Assembly (NCBI RefSeq): GCF_014207705.1
Contig: NZ_JACHIU010000001.1
Coordinates: 4,952,501 to 5,016,500, forward strand
Origin: Sphaerisporangium rubeum
GTDB lineage: Bacteria > Actinomycetota > Actinomycetes > Streptosporangiales > Streptosporangiaceae
Length of the DNA: 64,000 nucleotides
Reading direction: 5' to 3'
Part shown: positions 28,011 through 55,103 of the stretch, in pieces
Layout of the letters: each line of letters starts with the position of its first letter
How positions within the stretch are numbered: the stretch's first letter is position 1
Position numbers and translations under genes: made by a program
Notes under the pieces: generated by a model
Told to the model about the DNA's origin: nothing
The model's database searches: none
The model's input: only the letters and a program-made list of their open reading frames with translations

Positions 28011-30494
28011 TCACCAGATGTTGCAGATGCGGAACTCCCTGCCACCGAAACCGGTGGACTTGAAGTGGTTGTACTCGAAGCTTCCCGGCACGGCCCACAC
28101 CCAGGTGCCTTCGCCGTTCATCAGCGCGAACAGCTCTTTGGTGCCGGCCGGTTTGTCCGAGAAGCAGGCGAAGGCCGGTCCTTCCGCGACGAATCCCGCG
28201 TGCTCTCCCGCGCCGGGTGAGAAGTAGTAGCTGCCGGGTTCATGGCACTGAGCGGCCTTCTGGCAGCTGAACCGGTAGATGGGAACCAGTCCCGGCACGC
28301 TGTTCACCTGGTCGGGCTGGTAGACCTTCCCGAGCGTGCTCTGCGAGCTCCACCCGGCCGGTCCCGCGCCGCCGGGGGAGATGAAGTTGGCGCGGCCCGG
28401 CGCGGGGGCCTTGTAGCGCAGCAGGTCGGTCGGCGCCGTGGACTCGTAGGTGTACGTCACCTTCGTCCCGGCCGCCAGCCGGCCGCCTGGCGGCGGGTCC
28501 TGCTTGATGACCTTGTTCAGGTCGAGCGTGATCTCGTTGTCGTTGGGTGCGCACTCCAGCGCCTCCTGGCGCAGCAGCGCACAGGCCGCGTCCGGGGCCT
28601 GGCCCACGAGGTTCGGCACCAGAGGTTCGCCGAGGTAGGTGACGGTGACCGTGCCGCCTGGCGCGAGACCGGCCCCGGCCGCGGGGGTCTGGGTCTGGAC
28701 CACGCCGGTGGGTGCCCCGCGGCCGGCCTCCTGCTGCGCGCAGGCGAGACCCGCCTGCTGCACGGCCGCGCACGCCTCGGCGACCGGACGTCCCTGGAGG
28801 GAACCGACCTCCACCTGCGCCGGGGAGACCACGGTGACGGTGGTGCCGGTGGCGGCGGGGGTGTCGGGCTTGGGGTCCTGCTTGGTCACCACACCGACCT
28901 GCGTGGCCGCCTTGGCCAGGCCTTCCGCGCTCTGCGCGCACTTGAGCCGCGCCTTGAGCACCGCCTCGCAGGCCTGCGCGGCGGGGACGCCGACGACGGC
29001 GGGGACGGTGACCGGGCCGCGGTACCGGACCGTGACGGCGCTGCCGCGCGCCGCGCGCGTCCCCGCCGGAGGGTCGGTGGCGAGGACGACGCCGGTGTCC
29101 CCCTGCGCGTCCTCGCCGCTCTCCGCGACGGCCAGGCAGCGGAACTTCGGACGCAGCCGCGCGCAGGCCTGCTCGCGCGGCTTGCCGACGACGTCCGGCA
29201 CGACCTCGTCCTTCGGTGTGGGTGCGGCGCTCGGCCGGGAGACGCGCGGTGCGGTGGTGACCGGCGTCACGGGCCTCGCCGGCGGCGGCTGCTCGTCCTG
29301 CTGGACGGTCGGGGTCGGTGTGGGGAGCGGCTTGTCGGACGGGCCGCCTTCGCCGCTGGTGTCGATGCTGGTCTTCTTGCCACTCGCGTCGAACGTCAGG
29401 GTGACGGTGCTCTGGGGGTCGTTCACCCAGACCCGCTCGTCGCGCACGGTGAGCTGGAACTCGTTCGAGGGGCTCGGCACCTTCTCGGCCCGCACCTCGC
29501 CGGTGGCGAGGTCGGCGATGAGGACCTGCAGGTCGGTGAAGTCGGGGACGTACACGCGTCCGTGGTGGACGACGGGTGCGGCGAAGGTGTGTCCCGCGCG
29601 GCCGGGGAGCCGGATGTTCCTCGCCTGGCGGGAGTTGAAGTCGCCGGTGGTCAGCACGCCGGTGCTCGGCACCACGACGGCGACGACCGGGGACGCCGTC
29701 CCCGGCTGCGACACCAGGCCGTCGCGCGCGCCGAGGTCGACCTGCCTGCGCAGGCCGCCTGCGTCGTGGAGCGCCGCCTGACCGGTGGCCTGCCGGTAGA
29801 CGACCGGCAGGTCGGAGACCAGGGTGAGCGCGGCGGACTCGCCGGGCTCGGTGACCCGCTGACGGCCCTTCACGGTGGTGCCGTCGATCTCCAGGAGTTC
29901 GCCGTTCGTCACGGACAGGGCCCAGGCCGTTCCCTTGGAGTCGACCACGGCGGCGGTGACCGGCGGGGTGGTGACCTCTCCCGGCTGACCACGCTTGCCG
30001 TCCAGCTTCCGCAGCCGGCCGTTCCTGTGGTCGACGGTGTAGGTCTCGCCGCCACCGGTGGTGAGGTCGAGCTGTCCCTTGGCGTCCGGGTGCCTCTCGG
30101 TCCGGTCGGGCTTCAGGGTGTCGGTGGGGAGGCGGGTCGCGACGCCGGTGTCGTTGTTGACGACCCAGACGGAGTCCGGCCCCACCTGGACCACTTCAAG
30201 GGTTTCCTTGCCTACTGCGAGGTTCACTGCTGTTTGAGCGTCAACGTGCTGATTGTCGGCATTGACGCGCAGTACTTTGCCGCCTTTCTGCAGATAGGCA
30301 CTGCCGTCCCCGAAAGCAGCCTTCGACGTGCGGTATCCCGCGCCGAAACCGACGGCCGTCACCAATGCGGCGACGGCGACACCGATTACTGCGCGATTGA
30401 TCCAGATGCTGGGCTTTCCACCTGATGGGAGCCGTCGCAGCCGTCCTACGGCCGATCTTCCAGCGGACAACAGCGAAGTCACCAAGGCGGACAT
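28011..30494 (-). CDS. Transmembrane protein with propeller-like region and four PASTA repeats
   Basis: An 827-residue protein. A single N-terminal membrane segment (AVIGVAVAALVTAVGFGAGY, about 33-53) is followed by an extracellular beta-rich region (about 60-385) with propeller-like WVVNN, AWALSV and RVWVND blades. Then come a Pro/Thr linker and four PASTA-type repeats (VVPDVVGKPREQACARL; VPAVVGVPAAQACEAVL; VGSLQGRPVAEACAAVQ; VPNLVGQAPDAACALLR). A C-terminal domain of about 130 residues (VPIYRFSCQ ... EGPAFACF) loosely resembles DUF5648 repeats. PASTA domains bind peptidoglycan fragments and usually sit on Ser/Thr kinases; here the sensor is separate from the kinase at 36253. GGAAGAG five bases before ATG 30494 fixes the start; a TTG eight codons upstream is rejected. 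It is divergent from the FHA regulator. Confidence 0.85.
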   Translation of the reverse strand: MSALVTSLLSAGRSAVGRLRRLPSGGKPSIWINRAVIGVAVAALVTAVGFGAGYRTSKAAFGDGSAYLQKGGKVLRVNADNQHVDAQTAVNLAVGKETLEVVQVGPDSVWVVNNDTGVATRLPTDTLKPDRTERHPDAKGQLDLTTGGGETYTVDHRNGRLRKLDGKRGQPGEVTTPPVTAAVVDSKGTAWALSVTNGELLEIDGTTVKGRQRVTEPGESAALTLVSDLPVVYRQATGQAALHDAGGLRRQVDLGARDGLVSQPGTASPVVAVVVPSTGVLTTGDFNSRQARNIRLPGRAGHTFAAPVVHHGRVYVPDFTDLQVLIADLATGEVRAEKVPSPSNEFQLTVRDERVWVNDPQSTVTLTFDASGKKTSIDTSGEGGPSDKPLPTPTPTVQQDEQPPPARPVTPVTTAPRVSRPSAAPTPKDEVVPDVVGKPREQACARLRPKFRCLAVAESGEDAQGDTGVVLATDPPAGTRAARGSAVTVRYRGPVTVPAVVGVPAAQACEAVLKARLKCAQSAEGLAKAATQVGVVTKQDPKPDTPAATGTTVTVVSPAQVEVGSLQGRPVAEACAAVQQAGLACAQQEAGRGAPTGVVQTQTPAAGAGLAPGGTVTVTYLGEPLVPNLVGQAPDAACALLRQEALECAPNDNEITLDLNKVIKQDPPPGGRLAAGTKVTYTYESTAPTDLLRYKAPAPGRANFISPGGAGPAGWSSQSTLGKVYQPDQVNSVPGLVPIYRFSCQKAAQCHEPGSYYFSPGAGEHAGFVAEGPAFACFSDKPAGTKELFALMNGEGTWVWAVPGSFEYNHFKSTGFGGREFRICNIW

Positions 30495-30563
30495 CAAGCT
30501 CTTCCATTCGCGAAACAAGCGGCCAAATCCAACACGCCATAACTGGCGATGTCCGAGAATAGG

Positions 30564-30611
30564 ACCTTACGTCCACCCGGCGGCGTCGTGCGTGGTGGGA
30601 AACCCTCCCCA
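30564..30611 (-). promoter_or_regulatory. Motif TGGGAAACCCTCCCCA with TAAGGT -10 (first copy of the shared operator)
   Basis: The near-palindrome lies at 30596-30611. On the minus strand a TAAGGT (30564-30569) follows after 26 bp, pointing at the PASTA gene; on the plus strand the FHA regulator ATG begins 21 bp after the motif. One base differs from the perfect copy at 31318. Confidence 0.6.
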
Positions 30612-30632
30612 GAGAAACCGTTGGAGAAGATC

Positions 30633-31310
30633 ATGACCGTGATGCGGGTCGAAAGGCGGGACCACGTCGTCGAGCTGACCGCCGATGACCGCCTCACCTT
30701 CGGCCGTGCACGCGACTGCACGATCTGCCTGGACCCGGAGGACACCGGCATCTCCCGCGTCGCCGGCGCCGTCGCGTACGACACCGGCACCTGGTGGCTG
30801 TCCAACGTCTCGGAGACCCGGCCGCTCTCGACGGTCGACGACCTCGGGTTCCGCAGCGTGCTGGCCCCCGGCCGCCGCGTCGCCGTCGAGTCCCTCACCA
30901 AGGTCCTGGTCGACGGCTCGCACCACCGCCACGGCCTCACCCTGACCCCGGCCGCGACGACCGCTCCCCCGCCTGCCGCCGTCACCCCGGCACCCGGCAC
31001 CACCCCCACGGCGACCGGCGCCGAGGTGATGATCAGCGCCGCCGACCGCCTGGCGATGACGGCGCTGTTCATGGGCTACCTGGAGGACCCGCCTCGGTAC
31101 GACCCCCACCCCAAGGACTACGCCGCCGCCGCGTCCCGGCTCGGCTGGCCGCGCACCACTCTCGTCAAGCGCATCGAGTACCTGCGCACCCGGCTCGACG
31201 CGGCGGGGGTCCCCAACATGAGAGGGTTCAACGCGCTGGCCAACCTCGCCGAGTACGCGCTCAGCCGGGGCCTGGTCACCCGCGAGGACCTCGCCGCGCT
31301 CCCCCGCTGA
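30633..31310 (+). CDS. FHA-domain protein with C-terminal helix-turn-helix (probable regulator)
   Basis: A 225-residue protein. The N-terminal part (about 1-100) has the FHA signature order: LTFGRARDCTICL, then SRVAGAV, then WWLSNVS. FHA domains bind phosphothreonine. After a Pro/Thr linker, residues 140-225 form a helical DNA-binding-like domain (DYAAAASRLGWPRTTLVKRIEYLRTRL), common to a family of actinomycete FHA regulators. GGAGAAG just before ATG 30633 fixes the start. The Ser/Thr kinase at 36253 is the obvious enzyme for creating its phosphopeptide ligand, and the 16-bp palindrome upstream of this gene and of both WXG100 genes is its obvious candidate target; both links are inference. 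Confidence 0.82.
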   Translation: MTVMRVERRDHVVELTADDRLTFGRARDCTICLDPEDTGISRVAGAVAYDTGTWWLSNVSETRPLSTVDDLGFRSVLAPGRRVAVESLTKVLVDGSHHRHGLTLTPAATTAPPPAAVTPAPGTTPTATGAEVMISAADRLAMTALFMGYLEDPPRYDPHPKDYAAAASRLGWPRTTLVKRIEYLRTRLDAAGVPNMRGFNALANLAEYALSRGLVTREDLAALPR

Positions 31311-31317
31311 GGTCCGC

Positions 31318-31363
31318 TGGGAAACCCTTCCCATACCGCCGCCGCCGGTGCGCCGTCTAGCGT
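31318..31363 (+). promoter_or_regulatory. Motif TGGGAAACCCTTCCCA with TAGCGT -10 upstream of WXG100
   Basis: The perfect palindromic copy (arms TGGGAA/TTCCCA) is at 31318-31333, with TAGCGT at 31358-31363 after a 24-bp gap. Transcription starting near 31370 would give a 30-nt leader with AAGGAG before the WXG100 ATG. The same motif-to--10 geometry recurs at 42674. Confidence 0.65.
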
Positions 31364-31400
31364 CGTCGCCGACATCGGACGACGGCGAAGGAGCCATGTG

Positions 31401-31664
31401 ATGACGGTCATCGGCGGCGAGATCCCCCAGTTGCACTCGCTCAACTCCAACTTCCAGCGGCAGGCCACCGCCGTGGACACCCTGCTGCGCGAACTGCGCA
31501 ACGAGCTGGCGGGGACGTACTGGCGCGGCGGCGCGGCCGACCGCTTCCGCGCCTCGTGGAGCAGTGAGTACGAGCCGGCGCTCACCCGCCTGTCGGCGGC
31601 GCTGCAGGACGCCGCCTCCGAGGTGCGCCGCCGCGCCGAGGCGCTGGAGCAGGTCGGCGGCTGA
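31401..31664 (+). CDS. WXG100-family protein (ESAT-6-like)
   Basis: An 87-residue helical protein with two long helices joined by YWRGGAADRF, which carries the W-x-G turn of the family near residue 42. WXG100 proteins are small dimeric substrates or partners of type VII secretion systems. The C-terminus (EVRRRAEALEQVGG) is charged and lacks a clear YxxxD/E export signal. AAGGAG lies seven bases before ATG 31401; an overlapping GTG one codon upstream is possible. It is the first gene after the palindrome promoter and is followed 38 bp later by the FtsK/EccC-like ATPase, its probable export motor. Confidence 0.9.
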   Translation: MTVIGGEIPQLHSLNSNFQRQATAVDTLLRELRNELAGTYWRGGAADRFRASWSSEYEPALTRLSAALQDAASEVRRRAEALEQVGG

Positions 31665-31702
31665 CGAGTTCAGGACGGATCAGGACACAGGGAGGACCGG
31701 CG

Positions 31703-34700
31703 GTGGAGCGCGAGATGCGGGTCGTGACGGATGGCCGGGAGACGGCCGTCGTGCTGCGGGCCGGGCCCGGCGCCACCGTGGCCGACCTCGTCCGCGCGCT
31801 GCCGGCGGCCGGCCTGCCTCCCTGCTCCGGCGTCCCGCTGTGGCTGGACGGCCACGCGGTGCCGCAGGACAGGCCGCTCGCGGAACTCCGGCTGCCGGCG
31901 GGGGCCCGCCTGGAGTTCGCGTCCCACCCCGTGAGCCCCGCCGGGACGGCGAGCCCGTCCCCGGGGCTGGAGGTGGCGGTCGCCGGTGGCGCCGGCGGCG
32001 CGGCGTCGGCCCCGCTGGTGGCGGGGACGGCGCTGACGGTGGGAAGAGCCGCAGGAGGGCTCACGCTGGCCGACCCCGAGGTGAGCCGTACGCATGCGAC
32101 GCTGCTGCTCACACCGGACGGTGACGCGGAGCTGAGCGACGCGGGCTCGCGCAACGGGGTGGCGTGGCAGGGGGTGCGGCTCGACGGCAGCGCCGTCGTG
32201 GCGCCGGGGGAGGTGTTCGGGGCCGGGGAGACCGTGCTGGCGGTGCGGGAGAGCGACCCCGCGGACGCGCCGGTCGAGGCCGCGGGGGACGTGCTGCTGT
32301 TCAACCGGCCGCCGCGCATACCGCTGACCCGGCCCGCACCGGTGTTCACGGTGCCGCGCCGGCCGGACGAGCCCCGCAGGGTGCGCTTCCCCGTGGTGGC
32401 GATCGTGCTGCCGCTGGTCCTCGCGGCGGCGGCCTACGCGCTGTTCCCCGGCGCGGGGTACTTCCTGATCTTCCTGGCGCTGTCGCCGGTCCTGATGCTC
32501 GCCAACGTCGTCTCCGACCGGCGGGGAGGACGGCGTGAGCACCGCGAGGCGGTCAAGGAGTACGAACGCAGGCGTGCGCTGCTGGAGGAGGCCCTCGCCG
32601 CCGCGGCCGGCGAACAGGGACGGACGGGACGCGACGCGCTTCCCGACCCGGCGCGGCTGCTGCGCGTCGCGACAGGGCCGACCCGGCGGCTGTTCGAGCG
32701 CCGGCCGCACGACGAGGACTTCCTGCGGCTGCGGGTGGGGCTCGCCGCCACGCCGGTCGAGGCGGCGTTCACCGGACCGGGGACCGAGGAGCCGCCGGAG
32801 CGTCCCGTGGTGCACCACGCGCCGGTCGCGATCGACCTGGCCGCCGCCGGGGTGCTCGGCGTCGCCGGGCCGCGCGAGGCGGTGCTCGCCACGGCGCGGG
32901 CCGTGCTGGCGCACCTGGCGGTGCTGCACGGGCCGCACGACGCCGGGCTCGTGGTGCTGACCGGCGCCGAGGAGGCGGCGGACTGGGAATGGGTCACGTG
33001 GCTGCCGCATTCGCTGCCGCACTCCCCCGACTTCGCCTGCCGGCGCATGGTCGCCACCGACGCGCGGCAGGCCGGCGCGCGGCTCGCCGAGCTCGGGTCA
33101 CTTGTCGCGGAACGGCGTGCCGAGCGCCGCGCCACGCTGCGCGCCGGCGGGCCGAGCGGACGGCGTCTCGTCGTGGTGGCCGACCGCGCGCGGCGGCTGC
33201 GTGAGCTGCCGGGGCTCGCCGAGCTGCTCGCCGAGGGGCCGGAGGCGGGGGTGTACGCGATCTGCCTGGACGACGACGAGACCAGTCTCCCCGACGAGTG
33301 CCGCGCCACCGTCGTCGTCACCAGCGCGTCCGGCACCAGGGCCCGGGTGCGCAGGCCCGACGGGTCGCTCACCGAGTCGGTGCTGCTCGACCGGCTCCCC
33401 GCCGGGGACGCGCTGCGCCTCGGCCACGCCATGGCCCCGATACGGGTGCTCGGCGGCCGGTCCGGCGGCGGCGCCGAGCTTCCCGCGTCCGTCGGCTTCC
33501 TGGAACTCGCCGGGCTCGGCGCCACCCCCACTCCGGAGGAGATCACGCGGCGGTGGGCCGCCGGCGGCCCGAGCACGGCGGTGACGCTCGGCGTCGGGGC
33601 CGAAGGGCCGGTCACGGTGGACCTGCGGCGCGACGGGCCGCACGCGCTGATCGCAGGGACCAGCGGCGCGGGGAAGTCCGAACTGCTGCAGACCCTCGTC
33701 GCGGGGCTGGCGCTCGGCAACACCCCCGAGGCGCTGTCGATGGTCCTGGTGGACTACAAAGGCGGCAGCGCGTTCGCCGAGTGCCGTGACCTGCCGCACT
33801 GCGCCGGCATGGTCACCGACCTGGACGGTCACCTGGTGTCCCGCGCGCTCGCGTCGCTCGACGCCGAGCTGAAGCGGCGCGAACGGCTGTTCGCCGAGGC
33901 CGGCGCCAAGGACATCGAGGACTACCTCGCGGCGGGACGCGCGCTGCCGCGCCTGGTGATCGTCATCGACGAGTTCGCGTCCCTGGTGGAGGAGGTCCCG
34001 GAGTTCGTCACCGGGGTCGTCGGCATCGGGATGCGAGGCCGCAGCCTCGGCGTGCACGTCGTGCTCGCCACGCAGCGGCCGGCCGGCGTCGTGAACGCCG
34101 AGCTGCGGGCCAACCTGAACCTGCGGATCTGCCTGCGCGTCACCAGCGCCTCCGACAGCGGCGACGTCATCGACGTCCCCGACGCGGCCCGGCTGTCGCG
34201 CCACGTCCCCGGCCGCGCGTACCTGCGCGCCGGCCACTCCGACCTCACCCTGCTCCAGGTGGCCCGCGCCGGACGGCCGCGCGAGCTGCCGGGGACCGGC
34301 GCCGCCGAGCAGGTCACCGTGACCCGGCGTACCGTCGCCGAGGCGGGGTCGGCGGCACCGGTGACCGCGCCGCCGCCGGCCGGACAGGACCGGGAGACCG
34401 ACCTCGGGGTGCTCGTCGCGGCCGTACGCGACGCCGCGACGCGCGGCGGGGCCCGCACGGCGCCTAGCCCGTGGCTGCCGCCGCTGCCTGAGCTGGTGAC
34501 CGTGGACGACCTGGACGCAGGGGACGGCGGCCTGGACACCGGGAACACCGGCCTGAACCTCGGGGACGGCGGCCGCGCGCCGTTCGCCGTGCCGCTCGGG
34601 CTCGGCGACCATCCCGGCGAGCAGGCGCAGCGGCCCTTCCTGCTGGACCTGGAACGGACCGGGCCGCTGCTGGTCGCCGGGATGGCACGCAGCGGCCGGT

Positions 34701-36256
34701 CCACCGTGCTGCGCACCCTCGCCGTCGAGCTGGCCCGGCGGCACGGGCCGGCCGACGCGCACCTGTACCTGCTCGATCAGGGAAACCGGGCCCTGGCTCC
34801 GCTGGCGGCGCTGCCGCACTGCGGCGCGCACGTGGACGGCGACGACGCCGACCGCACCGCGCGGGTCCTCGCGCTGCTGAACTCGGAGGTCGACCGGCGG
34901 CAGCGCCTGCTGTCGGCCGGCGGGTACGCCTCACCGGCCGAGCAGCGCGCGGCGTGCGGCGGCGACGCGCTGCCGTACCTGGTGCTGATGCTCGACGGCT
35001 ACGAGACGTTCGTCGCGCGGTACGCCGACCTGGACGGCGGCCGGCTCGTCGACGCGCTCGACGGGCTGCTGCGCCGCGGACCGGCCGCCGGGGTGGTCAC
35101 GGTGATCTCCACCGACCGGTCCGGTTTCACGCAGCGGCTCGCCGGCGCGACGGCGGCCCGCCTGGTGCTGCGGCACGCCGACCGCGACGACCTCGCCGCG
35201 TACGGGATCAACCCGCGTGAGGCGCCGCGCGCGATGCCACCTGGCCGGGCCATCGCCGTCCCCTCCATGGTGGAGACGCAGATCGCGATGCTCGACGCCG
35301 ACCCCGAAGGCGCGGCCCAGGTCGCCGCGGTGGAACGCTTCGCGCAGAAGTGCCGGCGCCGCTGGGACGGCGTCCCGGAGGACCGGCTGCCGCACCCGGT
35401 GGACCCGCTGCCGTCCCGGATCACCGCCGCGGAGGCCGGACGGCTCAGGAGGACCCCCGCGCCGCCGGAGCCCACTGTGTGCACGATCGGGGTGGGGGGA
35501 GACCGGCTCGGGCCGGTCGACCTCGACCTGGCCGGGCTCGGCCACGTGTTCCTCGTCGCGGGACCGGCCCGCTCGGGCCGCAGCGGCGCACTGCTCGCCG
35601 TGGCCAGGTCACTGACCACGACCGGCCGACCCGGCGTGACAGTGGGACCCCATGGCGTGGCCGACGCGGCGGCGGGACCGCTTGGCACGGCCGGAACGGC
35701 GGCGGGAGCATATGGCACGGCCAACGCCGGAGCGGGACCCCACAGCGCGGCCGGCCCGGCGGCGGGATCGTCCGGCGCGGCCATGAGGCTTCCCGTGATC
35801 GCGGTCTGTCCCCGGCAGTCCCCGCTGCGTACGGCCCACGGGGTGGCGGCGGTGCTGGACGGCGGGGACGCCGAGGCGTTGCGGGTGGCGCTCCACGCGC
35901 AGGAGGGGCCGTGCGCGGTGCTGGTGGACGACGCCGAGCTGCTCGCCGACGGACCGTGCGCGACGGTGCTTGAGGACCTCGCGCGGACGGCGCGGGACCG
36001 GGGTCATGTGCTGGTGGCGGCGGGGACGACCGAGGATCTGCAGATGCAGCGGTACCGTGGCTGGCTGTCGGCGGTGCGGCGCGCGCGGACCGGGTTGCTG
36101 CTCACCCCGTCGTCCTCGGCCGACGGCGACCTGTTCGACCTGAAGCTGCCGTCGTCGACCCGTGGAGGGCTGCCGCCGGGACGAGGGCTGTTGGTCACCC
36201 CTGGCGGCCGGATGACGGTGCAGGTGCCGCTCTGTGATGAGGAAATTCACGGATGA
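31703..36256 (+). CDS. FHA-FtsK/SpoIIIE (EccC-like) type VII secretion ATPase
   Basis: A 1,517-residue protein. A ubiquitin-like or beta N-terminus (1-75) is followed by an FHA domain at about 105-190 (LTVGRAAGG, VSRTHATLLL, DAGSRNGV). Two adjacent membrane segments are at about 230-275 (VVAIVLPLVLAAAAYALF, GYFLIFLALSPVLMLANV). ATPase 1 is canonical, with P-loop GTSGAGKSELLQT near 650 and Walker B RLVIVIDEFASL. ATPase 2 (AGMARSGRSTVLRTL, near 995) and ATPase 3 (AGPARSGRSGALLAV, near 1290) are degenerate in part. This three-ATPase order is that of EccC, the motor of type VII secretion; the built-in FHA domain is the streptomycete-like variant. GTG 31703 has GGAGG eight bases upstream. Its stop overlaps the kinase start by ATGA. 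Confidence 0.92.
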   Translation: MEREMRVVTDGRETAVVLRAGPGATVADLVRALPAAGLPPCSGVPLWLDGHAVPQDRPLAELRLPAGARLEFASHPVSPAGTASPSPGLEVAVAGGAGGAASAPLVAGTALTVGRAAGGLTLADPEVSRTHATLLLTPDGDAELSDAGSRNGVAWQGVRLDGSAVVAPGEVFGAGETVLAVRESDPADAPVEAAGDVLLFNRPPRIPLTRPAPVFTVPRRPDEPRRVRFPVVAIVLPLVLAAAAYALFPGAGYFLIFLALSPVLMLANVVSDRRGGRREHREAVKEYERRRALLEEALAAAAGEQGRTGRDALPDPARLLRVATGPTRRLFERRPHDEDFLRLRVGLAATPVEAAFTGPGTEEPPERPVVHHAPVAIDLAAAGVLGVAGPREAVLATARAVLAHLAVLHGPHDAGLVVLTGAEEAADWEWVTWLPHSLPHSPDFACRRMVATDARQAGARLAELGSLVAERRAERRATLRAGGPSGRRLVVVADRARRLRELPGLAELLAEGPEAGVYAICLDDDETSLPDECRATVVVTSASGTRARVRRPDGSLTESVLLDRLPAGDALRLGHAMAPIRVLGGRSGGGAELPASVGFLELAGLGATPTPEEITRRWAAGGPSTAVTLGVGAEGPVTVDLRRDGPHALIAGTSGAGKSELLQTLVAGLALGNTPEALSMVLVDYKGGSAFAECRDLPHCAGMVTDLDGHLVSRALASLDAELKRRERLFAEAGAKDIEDYLAAGRALPRLVIVIDEFASLVEEVPEFVTGVVGIGMRGRSLGVHVVLATQRPAGVVNAELRANLNLRICLRVTSASDSGDVIDVPDAARLSRHVPGRAYLRAGHSDLTLLQVARAGRPRELPGTGAAEQVTVTRRTVAEAGSAAPVTAPPPAGQDRETDLGVLVAAVRDAATRGGARTAPSPWLPPLPELVTVDDLDAGDGGLDTGNTGLNLGDGGRAPFAVPLGLGDHPGEQAQRPFLLDLERTGPLLVAGMARSGRSTVLRTLAVELARRHGPADAHLYLLDQGNRALAPLAALPHCGAHVDGDDADRTARVLALLNSEVDRRQRLLSAGGYASPAEQRAACGGDALPYLVLMLDGYETFVARYADLDGGRLVDALDGLLRRGPAAGVVTVISTDRSGFTQRLAGATAARLVLRHADRDDLAAYGINPREAPRAMPPGRAIAVPSMVETQIAMLDADPEGAAQVAAVERFAQKCRRRWDGVPEDRLPHPVDPLPSRITAAEAGRLRRTPAPPEPTVCTIGVGGDRLGPVDLDLAGLGHVFLVAGPARSGRSGALLAVARSLTTTGRPGVTVGPHGVADAAAGPLGTAGTAAGAYGTANAGAGPHSAAGPAAGSSGAAMRLPVIAVCPRQSPLRTAHGVAAVLDGGDAEALRVALHAQEGPCAVLVDDAELLADGPCATVLEDLARTARDRGHVLVAAGTTEDLQMQRYRGWLSAVRRARTGLLLTPSSSADGDLFDLKLPSSTRGGLPPGRGLLVTPGGRMTVQVPLCDEEIHG
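35645..35782. repeat. In-frame 30-bp minisatellite in the third ATPase of the EccC-like gene
   Basis: About 4.6 imperfect copies of a 10-residue unit of the GP(H/L)GxAxxAA type interrupt the third ATPase domain just after its P-loop helix. The insert keeps the reading frame. Confidence 0.7.
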
Positions 36257-38148
36257 GTCGGTGTATGACCACTGTGAGTGGTTATAGTACGACCGCAGTG
36301 CCGCCAGGAGCACGCTACGTGCCGCACCGCGGCCCTCGCGCGGACACCACTGCCTCACCGCTCGTGGATCGCGGCCCTCGTGCGGAGACCGCTGGCTCAC
36401 CGCTCGTGGATCGCGGCCCTCGCGCGGAGACCGCTGGTTCACCGCTCACGGACCCCGGCCCACGTGCGGAGACCACTGCCTCACCGCTCACGGACCCCGG
36501 CCCACGTGTGGAGACCACTGCCTTGAACAGCGACCCCGCCGCGTTACCGACCCTTCCCCCGGGAGGGGCACGTGGGCCGGACCCCGGTGCCGCGCCGGTC
36601 CCCCTCGGCCGCGGCTACCGGCTGGAGCGGCTCATCGGCCAGGGCTCCAACGGCCGGGTCTACGAAGGACGCAGGATCGCCGACGAGCACCCTGTCGCGA
36701 TCAAGGTGCTTCGCGAGGAGTACGCCGCCGACCGTGAGGCGGTCGCGCGGTTCCTGCGCGAACGTATGGCGCTGCGGTCCCTCGACCATCCCCATCTGGT
36801 GCCGGTGCACGACCTGGTGGTCGAAGGGGACACGCACGCCATCGTCATGGAGCTGGTGACCGGGGAGACGCTGCGCGACGCGATGGCGCGGGACGCGTTC
36901 GACGCCGACCGGGGCATGACGCTGCTCGGCCAGGTCGCGTCGGCGCTCGCGGCGGTTCACGCGGCCGGCATCGTGCACCGCGACCTGAAGCCGGAGAACG
37001 TGCTGGTGACATGGCGCGGCGGCGAGCCGTGGGCCCGTCTCACCGACTTCGGGGTGGCGCTGGTGGCCGACGGCCAGGTGCTCACCCGGGTCTCCCAGCT
37101 CGTCGGCACCCCCGCCTACCTGGCCCCCGAACTGGCGCAGGGCCGTCCCGCCGGGACCGCCGTGGACGTGTACGCGCTCGGCGTCATGGCGTACGAGCTG
37201 CTCGCCGGCCGGCGGCCCTTCACCGGGGACACCCCGATGGCGCTGCTTCGGGCCCACCTGGAGGACGAGCCGGCCCGGCCCGGCGGCGTCAACGACGAGG
37301 TCTGGCGTGTGCTGTCGGCGTGCCTCGCCAAACGACCGCAGGACCGGCCGCAGGCGGAGCCCTTGGCCGGCGACCTCACCCGATTACGTGGCCGCACCGG
37401 CGCGCTGCCTCCCGGCGCGCCACCCCCGATCCCACCCTCCGTCACCCCGTCCCCCGACCAGGCCTCCCCGGCGCGCTCCTCCGCGCCGCACGCTACCGGG
37501 TCCCCACCGGCCGCTCCGGGATCGGCCTTCACAGGACCGGCCACCGCTGGACGGACTACTACAGGACCGGCTCATAACGGACCGGCCACCACCGGACCTG
37601 CTAATGCGGGACCGGCCGCCACCGGATCGGCCGCAACGGGGAACGTGCTCCCCGAGGTGCTCGCGACGAGCGGTGCGACCGTGCTCGTCCCCGAGGCACC
37701 CGCGAAGCCTTCCGCGCCGCGACGGCGCCTGCTGTGGCCGGTGCTCGGTGCGCTCGGGCTGCTGGTCGCGGCGACCGGCGCGGGGATCTGGTACGGGACG
37801 TCGTCCCCGTCGGCGACGCCGCCCGCCGCGACCGCGTCACCGGGGCCGGCCCTGCAGTTGTACTCGGTGCCGCTGGTGCTCACCAGTCCCGAGCGCGGCA
37901 CCATCAAGATCGACTTCGCGGACGCGTCGTCGGCGCCGGGGTTCGTCAAGTACGTGGTGTTCCGGGGGAACCTCAAGATCGCCGATCCGTCCGCCGGTGA
38001 CGCGCCGCCGTACCTCGTCCACAAGCTCGACAGCCGCACCAGGTACTGCTACCGCGTCATGGTGCTCGTCGACTCGGCCGGTCCCGTGCCGGCCGATCAG
38101 AAACCCGTGTGCCGTGCCGCCGACGGACGCGCGGCACGGCAACAGTGA
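36253..38148 (+). CDS. Transmembrane Ser/Thr protein kinase with C-terminal FN3-like ectodomain
   Basis: A 631-residue kinase. A repeat-rich disordered N-terminus of about 115 residues precedes the kinase domain (about 120-390). The kinase has G-loop LIGQGSNGRVYEG, VAIKVL lysine, HRDLKPENV catalytic loop, DFG and a GTPAYLAPE activation segment. A Thr/Pro/Ala linker and one membrane segment (LLWPVLGALGLLVAATGAGI, about 497-516) follow. The extracellular domain of about 105 residues (GTIKIDFADASSAPGFVKYV, RTRYCYRVMVLVDSAG) looks like a fibronectin-III fold. Unlike PknB it has no PASTA repeats; these are on the protein at 28011. ATG 36253 overlaps the EccC stop (ATGA) and GAGGAAA lies eight bases upstream. 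Likely substrates are the FHA proteins of this locus. Confidence 0.92.
   Translation: MSRCMTTVSGYSTTAVPPGARYVPHRGPRADTTASPLVDRGPRAETAGSPLVDRGPRAETAGSPLTDPGPRAETTASPLTDPGPRVETTALNSDPAALPTLPPGGARGPDPGAAPVPLGRGYRLERLIGQGSNGRVYEGRRIADEHPVAIKVLREEYAADREAVARFLRERMALRSLDHPHLVPVHDLVVEGDTHAIVMELVTGETLRDAMARDAFDADRGMTLLGQVASALAAVHAAGIVHRDLKPENVLVTWRGGEPWARLTDFGVALVADGQVLTRVSQLVGTPAYLAPELAQGRPAGTAVDVYALGVMAYELLAGRRPFTGDTPMALLRAHLEDEPARPGGVNDEVWRVLSACLAKRPQDRPQAEPLAGDLTRLRGRTGALPPGAPPPIPPSVTPSPDQASPARSSAPHATGSPPAAPGSAFTGPATAGRTTTGPAHNGPATTGPANAGPAATGSAATGNVLPEVLATSGATVLVPEAPAKPSAPRRRLLWPVLGALGLLVAATGAGIWYGTSSPSATPPAATASPGPALQLYSVPLVLTSPERGTIKIDFADASSAPGFVKYVVFRGNLKIADPSAGDAPPYLVHKLDSRTRYCYRVMVLVDSAGPVPADQKPVCRAADGRAARQQ
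36328..36537. repeat. Five-copy in-frame 42-bp repeat in the kinase N-terminus
   Basis: Five copies of a 14-residue unit (RGPRAETAGSPLVD and variants with PGPR or PLTD) lie between the kinase start and its catalytic domain. DNA copies are highly similar, implying recent expansion. Confidence 0.9.
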
Positions 38149-38162
38149 GCTTCGGAGGCCAC

Positions 38163-39149
38163 ATGTCGAGCGAGACGACGGAGACCTCCGTCGACGCGGC
38201 GTCGTACTTCGCCGCCGGGTTCACCGCGCTGCGCGCCAACGTCGAGCAGGCGCTCACCGGCAAACCGCTCGCCGTACGGCTGGCGCTGACCTGCCTGTTC
38301 GCCGGGGGCCACCTGCTGGTGGAGGACGTCCCCGGTGTCGGCAAGACGACGCTGGCCAAGGCGATCGCGGCGTCGGTGGACGCGAGCTGGCACCGCATCC
38401 AGTTCACCCCCGACCTGCTGCCGTCCGACATCACCGGCACCATGGTGTACGACCAGCGGCAGAGCACGTTCGAGTTCCGGCCCGGCCCGGTGTTCGCGCA
38501 CATCGTGCTCGCCGACGAGATCAACCGCGCGTCGCCGAAGACGCAGTCCGCGCTGCTCGAGGTCATGGAGGAGCGGCAGGTCACGGTCGAGGGCCGCAGC
38601 CACCTGGTGCCGTCGCCGTTCCTCGTCGTCGCCACGCAGAACCCCGTGGACCTGGAAGGCACCTACCGGCTGCCTGAGGCGCAGCTCGACCGGTTCCTGC
38701 TGCGCATCGCGGTCGGCTACCCCGACGTCACGGCCGAACGCGACGTCCTGCTCGGCCGGGCCCGCGCGGGAGGCGCGCCGGCGCTGCGGCCGGTGGCCAA
38801 GGTGGAGCAGGTCCGCTGGATGATCGAGTACGTCTCACGGATCCACGTCGGGGACGCCGTCGCCGAGTACGTGGCCCGCCTCGCCGAAGCGACCCGCAGC
38901 CACCCCGGCCTGCGTCTCGGCCTGAGCCCTCGCGGCAGCCTCGCCATGGTCCGCGCCGCGCAGGCGTGGGCCGCCGGTGAGGGCCGCGGTTTCGTCACCC
39001 CCGACGACGTCCGGGCCGTCGCCGAGCCGGTGGCCGCGCACCGCCTCCTGCTCGACCCCCAGGCCGAGATCGAGGGCCAGACCTCCGCCGGCATCCTGAG
39101 CGACCTGCTCGTCACCGTCCCCGCGCCGGTCCCCGCCGCTCTGCGATGA
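38163..39149 (+). CDS. MoxR-family AAA+ ATPase
   Basis: A 328-residue protein. Walker A is VEDVPGVGKTTLAKA near residue 55, Walker B HIVLADEINRASPKTQSALL near 110, sensor 1 VVATQNPVDLEGTY near 158, and the C-terminal lid GLSPRGSLAMVRAAQAWA near 260. MoxR proteins are chaperone-like ATPases that almost always work with an adjacent DUF58 protein, as here; they often mature or activate envelope complexes. GGAGG five bases before ATG 38163 fixes the start. It follows the kinase by 14 bp and its stop overlaps the DUF58 start (ATGA), so it belongs to the long type VII-like operon. Confidence 0.93.
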   Translation: MSSETTETSVDAASYFAAGFTALRANVEQALTGKPLAVRLALTCLFAGGHLLVEDVPGVGKTTLAKAIAASVDASWHRIQFTPDLLPSDITGTMVYDQRQSTFEFRPGPVFAHIVLADEINRASPKTQSALLEVMEERQVTVEGRSHLVPSPFLVVATQNPVDLEGTYRLPEAQLDRFLLRIAVGYPDVTAERDVLLGRARAGGAPALRPVAKVEQVRWMIEYVSRIHVGDAVAEYVARLAEATRSHPGLRLGLSPRGSLAMVRAAQAWAAGEGRGFVTPDDVRAVAEPVAAHRLLLDPQAEIEGQTSAGILSDLLVTVPAPVPAALR

Positions 39150-40477
39150 CCGCTCCCCCGCCGCGCGAGCCACAGCTCACCGGTTCCGGCTCCGGTCCCC
39201 GCCGCCGTCCGGCGACCCTTCCCTCGCCGCGTGGGCCTCGGCTCACCGGTTCCGGCGTCGCTGCGGCCATCGCCGGCGTCGTCCTCGTGGCGTCGGGCTC
39301 GGCGACCGGCTACCCGGCACTGGCGGGGCTCGGCGCGTGCGCGCTCACGCTCGTGCTCGGCGCCGTGCTGCTGGTGTCTCCTCCGGTACGGCTGGAGGGG
39401 AGCCGCACGGTGACACCGGGACGGGTGACCGTGGACACCGGCGCCACCGGACACCTCGTCGTGCGGAACACCGGCAGGCTGTCCACCGGCCGCGCCACCG
39501 CGTCCGACGGCCGCGCCACCGCGTCCGACGGCCACGCCGCCGCGTCCGACGGCCACGCCGCCGCGGATGACCGCCGCGCCACCGCACCCGGCAGCGGCCC
39601 CACGATGTCCGGCGGCGGCGCGCGCTCCGGCGTGCTCGTCCCACCGCTCGCACCCGGCGCCGAGGCGCGCGTCGAGTACGCCATCCCCACTCCGCGCCGC
39701 GGCCTGGTGACGGTCGGCCCGCTGACCCTCGACCGGCGCGACCCCCTCGGCCTGGCCCGCCGCACCGACCACCTGGCCCCCGCCACCGTCCTGTGGGTGC
39801 GGCCCCGCGTCCACCCCTTGGCCGCGCCACCGGCCGGCCTGGCCCCCGGGCAGGAGATCCGGCGCGACCGCGCCGCCGAGAGCGCGAGCGCGTACGACGG
39901 GCTGCGCGAGTACCGCGCCGGTGACGACCCGCGCCGCATCCACTGGCCGTCCACGGCGCGCACCGGCCAACTGGTCGTCCGCAGGCCGGTCGAAGGCACC
40001 GGCCCCGGCGCCGCCGTCGTCCTCGACACCCGGACGGCCGCGTTGTCCCCTGCCGCCTTCGAGGACGCCGTCGAGGTCGCCGCGTCGGTGATGACCGCCG
40101 CAGGTCCCGGCGACGGAGCCGTCACGCTGCACATACTCGGCGAAGATCCCGCCGCCGCGCTCCGCGCCGGCGCGCGCGGCCCCGTGGACCGGCTCACCCT
40201 GGCGGAGCAGGCCGACTCCGGCGTCGCGTCGCTGCGGTCCCTGGTGCGCGGCACCGGGCCGAGTGGAGCGTTGATCCTGATCACCGGGACCGATCCGGAG
40301 GTGCCGCCGCTGCTCGCGTCGGGACGGCGGTCGTCCGGCCGCGCCGTGCTGGTACGGCTGGCCCCGGACGAGACGTCCACCACGGTGCGGGACGGCGCCG
40401 GCCTGACCGTGATCAGCGCCACGTCCGCACGCACGGCCGTGTCCGCGCTCGGCCGGTTCGGCGGTGGCGGACGATGA
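39146..40477 (+). CDS. DUF58-domain membrane protein
   Basis: A 443-residue protein. Two hydrophobic segments at about 35-80 (GVAAAIAGVVLVASGSATGY, ALTLVLGAVLLVSPPV) anchor it. The DUF58 signature is clear: AYDGLREYRAGDDPRRIHWPSTARTG split around residue 260, followed by a von Willebrand A-like region (AVVLDTRTAAL). DUF58 proteins pair with MoxR ATPases. Near residue 115 there are four 7-residue repeats (GRATASD/GHAAASD, DNA about 39488-39571), an in-frame minisatellite in the loop between the membrane part and the DUF58 core. The ATG overlaps the MoxR stop. Confidence 0.9.
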   Translation: MTAPPPREPQLTGSGSGPRRRPATLPSPRGPRLTGSGVAAAIAGVVLVASGSATGYPALAGLGACALTLVLGAVLLVSPPVRLEGSRTVTPGRVTVDTGATGHLVVRNTGRLSTGRATASDGRATASDGHAAASDGHAAADDRRATAPGSGPTMSGGGARSGVLVPPLAPGAEARVEYAIPTPRRGLVTVGPLTLDRRDPLGLARRTDHLAPATVLWVRPRVHPLAAPPAGLAPGQEIRRDRAAESASAYDGLREYRAGDDPRRIHWPSTARTGQLVVRRPVEGTGPGAAVVLDTRTAALSPAAFEDAVEVAASVMTAAGPGDGAVTLHILGEDPAAALRAGARGPVDRLTLAEQADSGVASLRSLVRGTGPSGALILITGTDPEVPPLLASGRRSSGRAVLVRLAPDETSTTVRDGAGLTVISATSARTAVSALGRFGGGGR

Positions 40478-40493
40478 GGCGTGCCGGGGACAC

Positions 40494-42650
40494 ATGGTGA
40501 ACGCAGTGAACGCGGTGAACGCGGTGAACATGGTGAACGCGGAGACAGGCGGGGGGAAGAACGGCGGAGCAGGCGGGGGCCGGGTCGTCGGTGTCGCGCT
40601 GGCGACGTCGCTCGGGCTGGCACCCATGGTCGCGTTCGCGGGGGTGTTCGGACGCACGCCGGGTGAGGCGCTCGGTGACGCGCGGTACGTGCTTCCCGTC
40701 GCGGGGGCCGCGGTGGTGGCCGGAGTGATCTGCCTGGTGGCCGGGGCCGTGCCACGGCTCGCGCCGGTCACGCGGCTCACGCTGGGGCTCGCGGGACTTG
40801 TGGCGTACGTCGCGCTGGTGCTGCCTTCGCGGGCCTTCGAAGGACCTCGGCTGCTGGTGACGTCGGTGCCGCCGCTCGACCCCTCCGGCGCGGAGCTCGC
40901 GACGGTGGCCTTCGTGAGCGGAGCGGCGGCGCTCGCGGCGGCGGAGTCGGTGCTGCGCGGCAAAAGCGCGGTATGGGCCATGGCCGTGCCGGTGGCGGGG
41001 GTCGCCGCCGGGCTGGCGGTGGCGGGGTCCGCAGGAACGGCCGGATGGCTCGCGCCGGCGCTGGCGGCCGTGTGTGCCGCGCTTCTCGCGCTGCGGGCCC
41101 GGCCGGCGGGTGGAGTCCTGCGGGCCGTGGTGGCGGTGCCGTTGGTCGGGGCCGGGGTGGCGGCCGGACTGCTCGGGCCGGCGCTGGTGGCCGTGTTGCC
41201 GGGTCGCGCGGAACCGGCGGACGCGCGTGAGCTGGTGCCGCAGGCCGTGCGGCCCCGGCAGGGGGTCAGCCCGTTGTCGCAGTTCCCGGCCATCCGCAGC
41301 GGCAAGCTGCCGGTGCGGCTGCGGGTGACGACGACCGGACGGGAACGGCTGCGGTACGCGACGCTGGCGCGGTTCGACGGGACGTACTGGACCAGTGACG
41401 CGACGTTCTGGCGGGCCGGCACGCGTCTTCCCGGCGCTCCGGACGGCGGCACGGACGCGCGGACGGTGGACACGCGGGTGCGGCTCGTCGAGGCCGGGCC
41501 GGTCGGCATGGTGGTGAGCGCGGGACGGCCGGTGGAGGTCTCGGTGCCGGGACTCGGGGTGGACCCCGGCACCGGTGACGTGGCGCTGCCTGACGACCGG
41601 CCCCCGCCTGGCGAGTACACCGTGCGGGGCTCGGTCCCCGTGGTGGACGCAGCCGCGCTCGCCGCGGACCGGCCGGTGACCGTGCCGGGGACCGACCGGG
41701 CCGTCGCGGCGGTCGCCGACGAGGCGCGCGGGATCGCCGGGGACCGGCACGACCTCGCCGCGCTGCGCCGCCTCGCCGGTCACTTCGCCGGCGGCAGGTT
41801 CCGGTCGGAGTCGGGGCCGCAGGCTCCTGGCGGACACGGGATCTTCCAGATCCGGCGGCTCCTTGAGACCCGTGCCGGGACGGCCGAGCAGTACGCGTCG
41901 GCGTTCGCGGCCATGGCGAGGTCTCTCGGGTACGACGTCCGCGTGGTGGTGGGGTTCACCCTCGGCCGGCCGGCGGCCGGTGGCGGACGGACGGTGACGG
42001 GTCAGCAGATCGACGCCTGGGTGGAGGTGCGGTTCGCCGAGTCGGGGTGGGTGCCGTTCCATCCGGCTCCCACGCGGGACGGCGAGACACCGGAGCGGGA
42101 GACCGCCGAGGAGTCCGAATCCGAGCCCTCGGCCGCGTCGGACAAGGACGCCGACCCGTCCACACCCGGTCAGGGCCGGAAGGCGACCGGCCCCGCCGGT
42201 ACGTCCTCCCCGGCGGTGCCGCTGACGCTCATGGTGGCCGTGCTGCTGGCGCTGCTGGCTTGCGTGCCGCTGCTGAAACCGGCGCTCCGCGTGCGCAGAC
42301 GCCGCGCGCGGGACCCGGTGCGGCGTGTCACCGGAGCCTGGCGCGACACCATGGAACGTCTCGCCGACGCGGGACTTCGCGTCCCCGCCTCGGCCACCAC
42401 CGGCGAGGCCCGCACCCGCGCGTCGGCGGGCTTTCCGACCCTCACCGAGCCGCTCGGAGCCCTCGCCGGCATCGTGGACCACACGATGTACGGCCCCGCG
42501 CCGGCTGGCCCGGCCGACGCGGACCGCGCCTGGGAACTCGCCGACACCGTACGCGACCGCCTGCGCCGCACCCTGCCTCGCGGCCGGAGGTTGTCGGCCG
42601 CGCTCCGGCCGCCGCGCCACCGGCTGTCACCGCGACTCCGCCGTCGCTGA
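40494..42650 (+). CDS. TgpA/DUF3488-like membrane protein with degenerate transglutaminase domain
   Basis: A protein of about 718 residues. About six to seven N-terminal membrane segments (residues 25-240) precede an extracellular transglutaminase-like domain (about 390-540), one more membrane segment (VPLTLMVAVLLALLACVPLL, near 590) and a cytoplasmic C-terminal domain. In active transglutaminase-like proteins the motif is (G)xCEQxA and HAWVEV; here the corresponding stretches read GTAEQYASAF and QIDAWVEVRF, so both the nucleophilic Cys and the His are replaced. The fold is otherwise conserved (WVPFHPAP). It is probably a structural or binding component rather than an enzyme. The start is uncertain: ATG 40494, or GTG 40464 overlapping the DUF58 stop. 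The first residues are a (V/M)NA repeat encoded by 9-bp units. Confidence 0.85.
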   Translation: MVNAVNAVNAVNMVNAETGGGKNGGAGGGRVVGVALATSLGLAPMVAFAGVFGRTPGEALGDARYVLPVAGAAVVAGVICLVAGAVPRLAPVTRLTLGLAGLVAYVALVLPSRAFEGPRLLVTSVPPLDPSGAELATVAFVSGAAALAAAESVLRGKSAVWAMAVPVAGVAAGLAVAGSAGTAGWLAPALAAVCAALLALRARPAGGVLRAVVAVPLVGAGVAAGLLGPALVAVLPGRAEPADARELVPQAVRPRQGVSPLSQFPAIRSGKLPVRLRVTTTGRERLRYATLARFDGTYWTSDATFWRAGTRLPGAPDGGTDARTVDTRVRLVEAGPVGMVVSAGRPVEVSVPGLGVDPGTGDVALPDDRPPPGEYTVRGSVPVVDAAALAADRPVTVPGTDRAVAAVADEARGIAGDRHDLAALRRLAGHFAGGRFRSESGPQAPGGHGIFQIRRLLETRAGTAEQYASAFAAMARSLGYDVRVVVGFTLGRPAAGGGRTVTGQQIDAWVEVRFAESGWVPFHPAPTRDGETPERETAEESESEPSAASDKDADPSTPGQGRKATGPAGTSSPAVPLTLMVAVLLALLACVPLLKPALRVRRRRARDPVRRVTGAWRDTMERLADAGLRVPASATTGEARTRASAGFPTLTEPLGALAGIVDHTMYGPAPAGPADADRAWELADTVRDRLRRTLPRGRRLSAALRPPRHRLSPRLRRR

Positions 42651-42673
42651 CGTCCGTCACGGTCCCCGCGCGA

Positions 42674-42718
42674 TGGGTAACCCTTCCCATTTCGCCGGGG
42701 CCGCGGCGCTCCTAGGGT
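42674..42718 (+). promoter_or_regulatory. Motif TGGGTAACCCTTCCCA with TAGGGT -10 (leaderless promoter)
   Basis: The third copy of the shared palindrome is at 42674-42689, one base different from the perfect copy, and TAGGGT at 42713-42718 follows after 23 bp. The next ATG is at 42726, seven bases after the -10, so the transcript should be leaderless. Confidence 0.65.
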
Positions 42719-42725
42719 CGCTGCC

Positions 42726-42977
42726 ATGAGCGCGAACCTGATCGCGGGACAGCCCGCGGTTCTCAGTGATGTCGCGGCCGTGCTCGGGGAGGCGGCCGCC
42801 GGGCTGCCTGTCACGCGAGGAGCGGCCGTGTCGGTGGGGGACGGGGCCGCGGACGCGGCCGTCCACGAGTTCGGCAGCCGGTGGTCGGAGCATCTGCACG
42901 ACCTCGGCCAGGTCATGGCGGTCACCGCACGGCAGGCACGCCTGACGGCGATCGCGTTCCGGCTGGCAGGGGGGTGA
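42726..42977 (+). CDS. WXG100/ESX-like small helical protein
   Basis: An 83-residue, largely helical protein (DVAAVLGEAAAGLPV ... VHEFGSRWSEHLHDLGQVMAV). Size, helical hairpin layout and position fit an ESX-family partner, but the W-x-G turn is not strict: the centre reads EFGSRWSEH. It resembles the type VII excreted-protein-like (DUF2580/EspC type) family more than classical ESAT-6. There is no Shine-Dalgarno site; with the -10 seven bases upstream, leaderless translation is likely. It is followed six bases later by the effector-like gene, so the two probably act as secretion partner and cargo. Confidence 0.75.
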   Translation: MSANLIAGQPAVLSDVAAVLGEAAAGLPVTRGAAVSVGDGAADAAVHEFGSRWSEHLHDLGQVMAVTARQARLTAIAFRLAGG

Positions 42978-42983
42978 CGGCAC

Positions 42984-44279: not shown

Positions 44280-44893
44280 ACGTCACGACGCACGTCTCCA
44301 CCGGCATCGAAGCCGCCACCGAAGACCACACCGAAGACCGCGCCGAAGACCGCGCCGGAGACCGCGCCGGAGACCGCGAGAAGCGTGGCTGGACCGCGGT
44401 CCCATGGCCGAACATCGCCTCCCCCGGTCTCAGTCCCTTCCGCATCGAACTGCCGGACCGATGGACCGCGATCGAACCCCCTGGTGCGCTCATCGCGTTC
44501 CTCGGACCGGAGAACGGCGGCTTCCGGCCGAGTGTCGTGGTGTACGGGGAGCGGCTGCCGCAAGAGGTCACGCTCGCCGAGGCCGCTGAGGGGCTGCTGT
44601 GGGACACCGGGGCCGACAGCGCCACCGGGCCGCTGGCCGACGAGGACTTCCCCTTGCACGCGATCCGGGAGGCCGTCGTCAGCGTGGACGGCATGGAACT
44701 GCGTGAACTGGCCGTGGCGACCGAGGCCGGTGACATGTCGTCAGGCGGGCTGCGCAGCGTATTCACGCTGCTCGCCACGCATCTGGTGTCGCGGACGGCG
44801 GCGGACGAGCCGGTGCTCGTGGACATCCTCTCGTCGTTCGCCTGCGAGCGTGCGCCGGCAGGCAAGGACGGTGCGCGTACGGTCAAGGACTGA
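44276..44893 (+). CDS. Soluble partner protein of the effector-like gene (LpqN/PsbP-like fold suspected)
   Basis: A 205-residue protein starting at a GTG that overlaps the preceding stop (GTGA), so its synthesis is coupled to the effector-like protein. Residues 13-34 are an acidic/basic 4-residue repeat (EDRAEDRAGDRAGDR). The remaining domain (about 50-200; FRIELPDRWTAIEPPGALIAF, VVVYGERLP) resembles the LpqN/DUF1795 (PsbP-like) fold seen in mycobacterial lipoproteins and in type VII-linked proteins. It has no signal peptide or lipobox. An accessory, chaperone or immunity role is possible; I cannot separate these. Confidence 0.7.
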   Translation: MNVTTHVSTGIEAATEDHTEDRAEDRAGDRAGDREKRGWTAVPWPNIASPGLSPFRIELPDRWTAIEPPGALIAFLGPENGGFRPSVVVYGERLPQEVTLAEAAEGLLWDTGADSATGPLADEDFPLHAIREAVVSVDGMELRELAVATEAGDMSSGGLRSVFTLLATHLVSRTAADEPVLVDILSSFACERAPAGKDGARTVKD

Positions 44894-46406: not shown

Positions 46407-46416
46407 CCCGCCGACC

Positions 46417-48041: not shown

Positions 48042-48051
48042 CCCGCCGACC

Positions 48052-51102: not shown

Positions 51103-55099
<3,997 letters not shown>

Positions 55100-55103
<4 letters not shown>

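Follow-up and report, generated by a model that had tools for sequence, protein, structure and literature searches.

What switches on a type VII-like secretion cluster in an actinomycete, and by which signal in the DNA? This question is raised by a locus of Sphaerisporangium rubeum in the window analysed here, a 64,000-nt stretch of the 7.5 Mb chromosome, in which the gene for a protein with an FHA domain and a putative helix-turn-helix (HTH) domain, hereafter the FHA-HTH protein, is flanked by copies of one palindrome on both sides, and a third copy lies further downstream. A cluster-specific regulon with activator-like promoter geometry, as a first-pass annotation of the sequence had proposed, has strong support from conservation in other genomes and from a test on additional ones, in which the site stands before the WXG100 gene in four of four cases; the FHA-HTH protein is a well-supported candidate for its binder. 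The sites, their promoter elements and the genes next to them are as follows.

30596..30611, minus strand: palindrome A, reading TGGGGAGGGTTTCCCA on that strand, one mismatch, between the divergent PASTA and FHA-HTH genes
30556..30561, minus strand: probable -10 element TATTCT of the PASTA gene, 34 bp from palindrome A, shared with four relatives
28011..30518, minus strand: PASTA-repeat protein, open reading frame (ORF) of 835 aa; PASTA (Pfam, 4.8e-32) is the sole family found, with no recognised kinase domain
30633..31310, plus strand: FHA-HTH protein, proposed palindrome regulator; conserved FHA core, FHA and HTH Pfam matches below cut-off
31318..31333, plus strand: palindrome B, TGGGAAACCCTTCCCA, no mismatch
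31358..31363, plus strand: TAGCGT, -10 element for the WXG100-ATPase operon, 24 bp downstream of palindrome B
31401..31664, plus strand: WXG100 protein (WXG1), Pfam WXG100 at 2.9e-08
42674..42689, plus strand: palindrome C, TGGGTAACCCTTCCCA, one mismatch to the exact form
42713..42718, plus strand: -10 element TAGGGT, 23 bp after palindrome C
42726..42977, plus strand: small 83-aa protein (WXG2), homologues in G342, G330 and G286

The palindrome is built of arms TGGGAA and TTCCCA, an inverted repeat around 4 bp, and over the sites it takes the consensus WTGGGRA-N4-TYCCCAT. A search of the window with the exact form at up to three mismatches returns just the three copies that had been noted at first sight (31318, exact; 30596 and 42674, one mismatch each), compared with 0.14 matches expected in the shuffled window, and none of 100 shuffles contained three. 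Across the genome, four places match at up to two mismatches, three of which are the window sites, the only ones within one mismatch; the fourth, at two mismatches, is without a -10-like TANNNT at 23/24 bp. A plasmid search gave no match. The bare palindrome is present in 148 of 297 family genomes (its own included), about once per genome and hardly above the reversed control in most rows; taken alone, it is therefore scattered. Scattering across unrelated promoters had been named in the first-pass annotation as one observation that would speak against a regulon, and it does hold for the bare palindrome, but the combination with TANNNT at 23/24 bp is found at only one of the 44 control palindromes read, which come from genomes lacking the cluster or from places away from it.

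This geometry was scored over 26 non-redundant sites from the window and its relatives, each matching at least 11 of 12 motif positions, by recording every TANNNT 0-45 bp downstream in both directions (52 orientations). Offset 23 accounts for 13 elements, offset 24 for five, offset 33 for one and offset 34 for four, and the other 42 offsets together for five, so that 18 of 52 orientations (17 of 26 sites) have TANNNT at 23/24, compared with 0.24 predicted from its frequency at the remaining offsets. The loci L128, L140, L143 and L036 were added after being seen and contribute five of the 26 sites; the window and eight homology-chosen loci alone give 14 of 40 orientations. The 44 controls are what remained of 45, two of them with an element at 23/24, after L085 was taken out as the true WXG2 site of G342, and two rows were dropped, L040 (the contig of L064) and L187 (a second, near-identical G620 copy). 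At 12 loci of FHA-HTH relatives without the operon, none of eight sites has TANNNT at 23/24. A comparison of palindrome density (21 sites at non-cluster against 26 at cluster loci) was set aside because half of the controls had been fetched for having the palindrome.

In all 20 promoters of a set chosen for having a -10 element (mostly TAGCGT), two of them at 10 of 12 motif positions, the palindrome is directly followed by T. If this T is the first base of a -35 hexamer with a 17/18-bp spacer, the palindrome would abut the -35 and be centred near -43. There is no consensus at the -35 position of the WXG-type promoters, which have the layout of class II promoters, with an operator fixed beside the -35 position, a weak -35 and a -10 present. 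CRP bound at -41.5, an example of a class II activator, likewise occupies a palindrome abutting the -35 in fixed helical phase; it is of a different protein family, and the palindrome centre here is nearer -43. In the discovery set, defined below, six WXG2-type sites have their ATG 35-37 bp after the palindrome (36 bp at palindrome C) and about 6-8 nt after the -10, so that WXG2-type mRNAs are probably leaderless; one site each in G620 and G606 has the ATG at 36 and 37, and the ORF of a seventh site with a small protein, L069:4353 in G216, begins 259 bp away.

Some sites have unusual arrangements. Tandem palindromes stand before WXG100 at L067 (1226 and 1258, starts 32 bp apart) and L185 (16014 and 16036, 22 bp), and in both pairs TANNNT at 23/24 is found only for the copy nearer WXG100. 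The site L066:12889 (G334) has TANNNT at 23 on one strand and at 24 on the other and might thus promote transcription in both directions; its minus side yielded no convincing ORF. Among the controls, a single palindrome has the geometry: at position 1501 of L120, from G029, TANNNT lies at offset 23 and the ATG at 37, with a 203-aa ORF following, and that genome holds no close FHA-HTH match.

Homologues of the FHA-HTH protein are patchily distributed, being found in 23 of 149 relatives at E up to 1e-3 and in 30 of 297 family genomes at E up to 1e-8 (own included in both), and a collection of named species holds one relative, in Nonomuraea turkmeniaca. About 8-20 kb was read around 20 homologues, eight of which have a PASTA gene beside the FHA-HTH gene. 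Picked by FHA-HTH homology, these eight (G330, G342, G286, G334, G216, G002, G030, G146) form the discovery set together with the window; G146 belongs to a different family from the window, the other seven to the same one. WXG100, ATPase and kinase genes lie on the same fetched stretch in seven of the eight relatives and a MoxR gene in six, the contig of G030 ending too soon; the remaining 12 of the 20 fetched loci hold no such operon. The palindrome separates the FHA-HTH and PASTA genes in nine of nine discovery genomes, window included (G216 and G030 at 10 of 12 motif positions), and precedes the WXG100 gene in all seven relatives whose WXG100 region is on the contig; with the window added, the WXG1 promoter has TANNNT at 23/24 in eight of eight. 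In G334, G216 and G002, the WXG100-ATPase operon lies apart from the FHA-HTH gene, and the palindrome is still found in front of it. Equivalents of palindrome C occur in G342, G330 and G286, in the last of which the WXG2 operon and its palindrome are on a contig other than that of the ATPase cluster, without TgpA beside WXG2. The genes that follow the sites are WXG100, WXG100-like small genes and PASTA genes, and in G002 and G572 directly the kinase gene (the G572 site at 10 of 12).

A class-wide search, with matches in seven of 394 genomes at E up to 1e-30, added G450, G620, G572 and G606, which were unused for motif building. A site with TANNNT at 23 lies before WXG100 in all four, including G572, where the operon is about 6 kb from the FHA-HTH gene. 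The site between the FHA-HTH and PASTA genes is likewise present in four of four (G450 at 10 of 12), with TANNNT at 24, 24, 23 and 25. Overall, these genomes hold nine sites that match 11 or more of the 12 positions, and seven of the nine have TANNNT at 23/24.

The spacing is not the same at every promoter. The first reading of the sequence had assigned -10 elements TAGCGT, TAGGGT and TAAGGT to the three palindromes at nearly fixed distances; this stands for the WXG-type promoters (24 and 23 bp in the window) and fails for the PASTA promoter. TAAGGT does exist 26 bp from palindrome A (30564-30569, minus strand), but it is not common to relatives and was rejected as the PASTA -10. What the window shares with G330, G342, G286 and G334 (five of nine genomes) is CCTATT(C/G)TC, in which a TATTCT or TATTGT lies 34 bp from the palindrome in the window and 34, 34, 33 and 34 bp from it in the four relatives, about one helical turn past 23/24. 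TATTCT at 34 bp is therefore the probable -10 of the PASTA promoter, and a fixed 23-26 bp for all three promoters was rejected for these five genomes. The equivalent promoter has TANNNT at 23 in G002, G216 and G030, and at 25 in G146.

The remaining genes of the cluster lie between and beyond the sites, all on the plus strand.

31703..36256, plus strand: EssC/EccC-like secretion ATPase with an N-terminal FHA domain; Pfam FHA and FtsK_SpoIIIE
36253..38148, plus strand: Ser/Thr kinase, Pfam Pkinase at 2.7e-52; HRDLKPEN and DFG motifs in the translation
38109..39149, plus strand: MoxR AAA ATPase, Pfam AAA_3 at 4.4e-64
39146..40477, plus strand: DUF58 protein, from the family scan
40464..42650, plus strand: TgpA-like transglutaminase membrane protein, from the family scan
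42984..44279, plus strand: 431-aa protein, candidate secreted substrate, kept with WXG2 in G342, G330 and G286
44276..44893, plus strand: 205-aa protein in the same operon as the WXG2 and 431-aa genes, conserved with both in G342, G330 and G286

In the broad sense this is a type VII secretion system (T7SS), as an FtsK/SpoIIIE-type EccC/EssC ATPase adjoins a WXG100 gene, although the ATPase scores below the cut-offs of the specific models (NCBIfam EssC 525.6 bits against a cut-off of 778.4, EccCa and EccCb likewise below). Among the ten proteins scanned between 28011 and 44279, no match to EccB, EccD, EccE or mycosin (ESX/T7SSa) was found at E up to 1e-3, the rest of the genome lying outside this search. 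The WXG100 and PASTA assignments made at first sight agree with Pfam; that of the 83-aa protein as WXG100-like goes by size and context only, since a Pfam scan up to E 1 gives no match, and no Pfam family reached its cut-off for the 431-aa protein. T7SS clusters with kinases and FHA proteins have been described, with phospho-control suggested for assembly and activity, and the present cluster, like the T7SSd, T7SSe and related variants as given in excerpts of that account, combines WXG100, an FHA-bearing EssC-like ATPase and a Ser/Thr kinase (Garrett et al. 2024, PMC11217815). These three components are among those of T7SSd. Of the other T7SSd components, TsdH (one transmembrane helix) and TsdI (a large Ig-like envelope protein), neither was recognised among the ten scanned proteins, no search with the TsdH or TsdI sequences having been made. 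MoxR and PASTA proteins are encoded here, and neither word occurs in the main text of PMC11217815; the sole transcriptional regulator found for its variants in the excerpts is TsiN (LytR-like, T7SSi).

The surroundings hold further genes of note. Three tandem paralogous secreted-looking proteins are encoded at 45000-49649, with a HELVH/HELLH motif in the translation as in metalloproteases, the second and third (46650-48041 and 48123-49649) having a weak carbohydrate-binding-domain match. Elsewhere in the window, a large BTAD-NB-ARC-TPR regulator (20502-23501) adjoins a LuxR-type AAA regulator (17554-20388), and a single-module nonribosomal peptide synthetase (condensation, adenylation, carrier, thioesterase; 51099-55349) stands beside a methyltransferase gene.

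Which protein reads the palindrome? The first-pass annotation had named the FHA-HTH protein as the natural candidate, and co-occurrence and synteny bear this out as far as candidacy goes. Among 297 family genomes, an ATPase with at least 59% identity across a 400-aa fragment is found in eight, and these are the same eight that hold an FHA-HTH match at E up to 1e-53 (own included), and the next match, in G042, drops to 3e-41 with no such cluster nearby. Sister ATPase loci (46-50% identical over the fragment) lack the site, with none of the best 22 of a much longer list having a palindrome of at least 11 of 12 in about 600 bp before the gene; one has a palindrome inside the ATPase gene, without a -10. 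Around FHA-HTH relatives with less than about 45% identity, the only EccC-like ATPase seen at E up to 1e-4 is one partial match (L073), and no site has TANNNT at 23/24; the motif is therefore not extended to them. The FHA core residues G24, R25, S41, R42 and N58 do not vary across the 18 aligned homologues, 14 of which give Pfam FHA matches at E up to 1 (best 4.7e-06); the HTH match is only weak. A low-confidence structure model has N-terminal strands, a low-confidence linker around 109-132 and C-terminal helices. A search of solved structures with the 18-member profile gave no match.

Taken together, it is probable that the FHA-HTH protein binds the palindrome as an operator and activates this EssC-like cluster. 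Most likely it would bind as a dimer and act as a class II activator from a palindrome that abuts the -35, centred near -43, at promoters without a good -35, thereby switching on the WXG100-ATPase-kinase-MoxR-DUF58-TgpA operon and the operon of the WXG100-like substrate, whereas the PASTA gene would probably be activated from one helical turn further away. A number of observations weigh against this interpretation. FHA domains usually have a histidine after the FHA serine, which is replaced by Ala, Thr or Ser in the FHA-HTH homologues; the matches of the window protein are weak (FHA 15.4 bits against a cut-off of 20.7, HTH_8 at E 0.01) and its structure model is poor (predicted local distance difference test score, pLDDT, of 55). 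Since the FHA-HTH and ATPase genes are linked, their co-occurrence mostly shows a cassette, and G042, G014, G226 and G196 hold FHA-HTH relatives whose fetched surroundings lack this operon. As to the geometry, four of the 26 sites (L067:1258, L130:14571, L140:4096, L079:9574) have TANNNT neither at 23/24 nor at 33/34, and a scan of 30300-43000 for consensus sigma-70 promoters, which found none, is weak evidence because merely 0.1 was expected in shuffles. The further genomes come from the family of G146, a genome that had gone into the motif, and G606 and G146 have almost the same sequence at their sites; two of the nine further sites, one of the G572 tandem pair and the offset-25 site of G606, lack the 23/24 spacing, and TANNNT appears five times at other offsets in 18 orientations.

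The closest known regulator supplies the most serious objection. EspM of Mycobacterium marinum and M. tuberculosis, an FHA-HTH regulator of ESX-1 encoded beside that locus and binding its own divergent intergenic region, is described as a repressor (PMC7002343, PMC11005418). Like EspM, the protein here would have an N-terminal FHA and a C-terminal, weakly matched HTH domain, its gene is divergently transcribed beside a type VII locus, and palindrome A sits in the divergent intergenic region; it also ends 21 bp before the FHA-HTH start codon, as in autorepression, and is shared with that gene. It could thus be argued that the FHA-HTH protein binds the palindrome, represses the cluster and is released by phosphorylation, a reading that appears unlikely. 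EspM represses whiB6, its divergent partner, and ESX-1 genes, whereas here the partner is the PASTA protein, and the system is EssC-like with an FHA domain on the ATPase and a kinase present. More to the point, the -10 follows the end of the palindrome at 23/24 bp in 18 of 52 orientations, which places the palindrome upstream of the promoter core and not over it, and there is no -35 consensus; such strict upstream positioning suggests an activator rather than a repressor.

Alternatively, a protein encoded elsewhere may recognise the palindrome, with the FHA-HTH gene as a mere passenger of the cluster. Most of the 148 family genomes with the bare palindrome lack this FHA-HTH protein, and FHA-HTH relatives exist without the site geometry. 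Nevertheless, the palindrome with its -10 geometry accompanies clusters with an orthologous FHA-HTH protein, compared with one in 44 palindromes read elsewhere. Sites lie on both sides of the FHA-HTH gene, and the scan of ten cluster proteins recognised no second DNA-binding protein. All this makes a foreign binder rather improbable, more so than repression. Least probable by far is that the repeats are chance or structural features that play no part in regulation, for instance terminator stems or recombination sites: while the bare palindrome is little above its reversed control, the sites are kept across two families in diverged surroundings, before the same genes and at the same distance to the -10, and the test on further genomes succeeded, provided that those genomes are independent.

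With activation by the FHA-HTH protein as the preferred reading, the kinase gene inside the activated operon, with its HRDLKPEN and DFG motifs, makes phospho-control with feedback a natural prediction. Gating of the FHA-HTH protein by this kinase is plausible, given its place in the operon and the invariant G, R, S and N of the FHA core, which probably reads phosphothreonine made by the same-operon kinase and would close a feedback loop. EmbR offers a likeness in its fusion of an FHA domain to a SARP-type DNA-binding domain and its phosphorylation by Ser/Thr kinases; its N-terminal DNA-binding/BTAD region and C-terminal FHA differ from the FHA-HTH protein in domain order and DNA-binding fold. 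More tentatively, and with the odds against it, there may be a switch within one protein, in which the operon kinase, with the PASTA protein as a possible wall sensor, phosphorylates a threonine, and FHA binding of the phosphothreonine sets DNA binding. Candidates include the linker threonine at residue 126 of the FHA-HTH protein, which stands in a T-x-x-G setting in nine of nine aligned cluster-linked orthologues.

To our knowledge, little is known about the activation of actinobacterial type VII systems outside mycobacteria, and the matches listed in a literature search included no described operator of this kind. Kinase/FHA T7SS clusters and the FHA-HTH regulator EspM are known already; what appears to be new is the shared operator with its fixed promoter geometry. 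The analysis thus yields a precise operator, a promoter geometry and a candidate regulator for an actinobacterial type VII cluster, and the geometry gives a means to recognise members of the regulon, including substrate operons elsewhere in the genome. It also opens a direct test of whether the kinases and FHA proteins of such clusters act on transcription or on the secretion machine itself. If the phospho-switch is true, secretion genes, substrates, kinase and sensor would be switched together via one palindrome.

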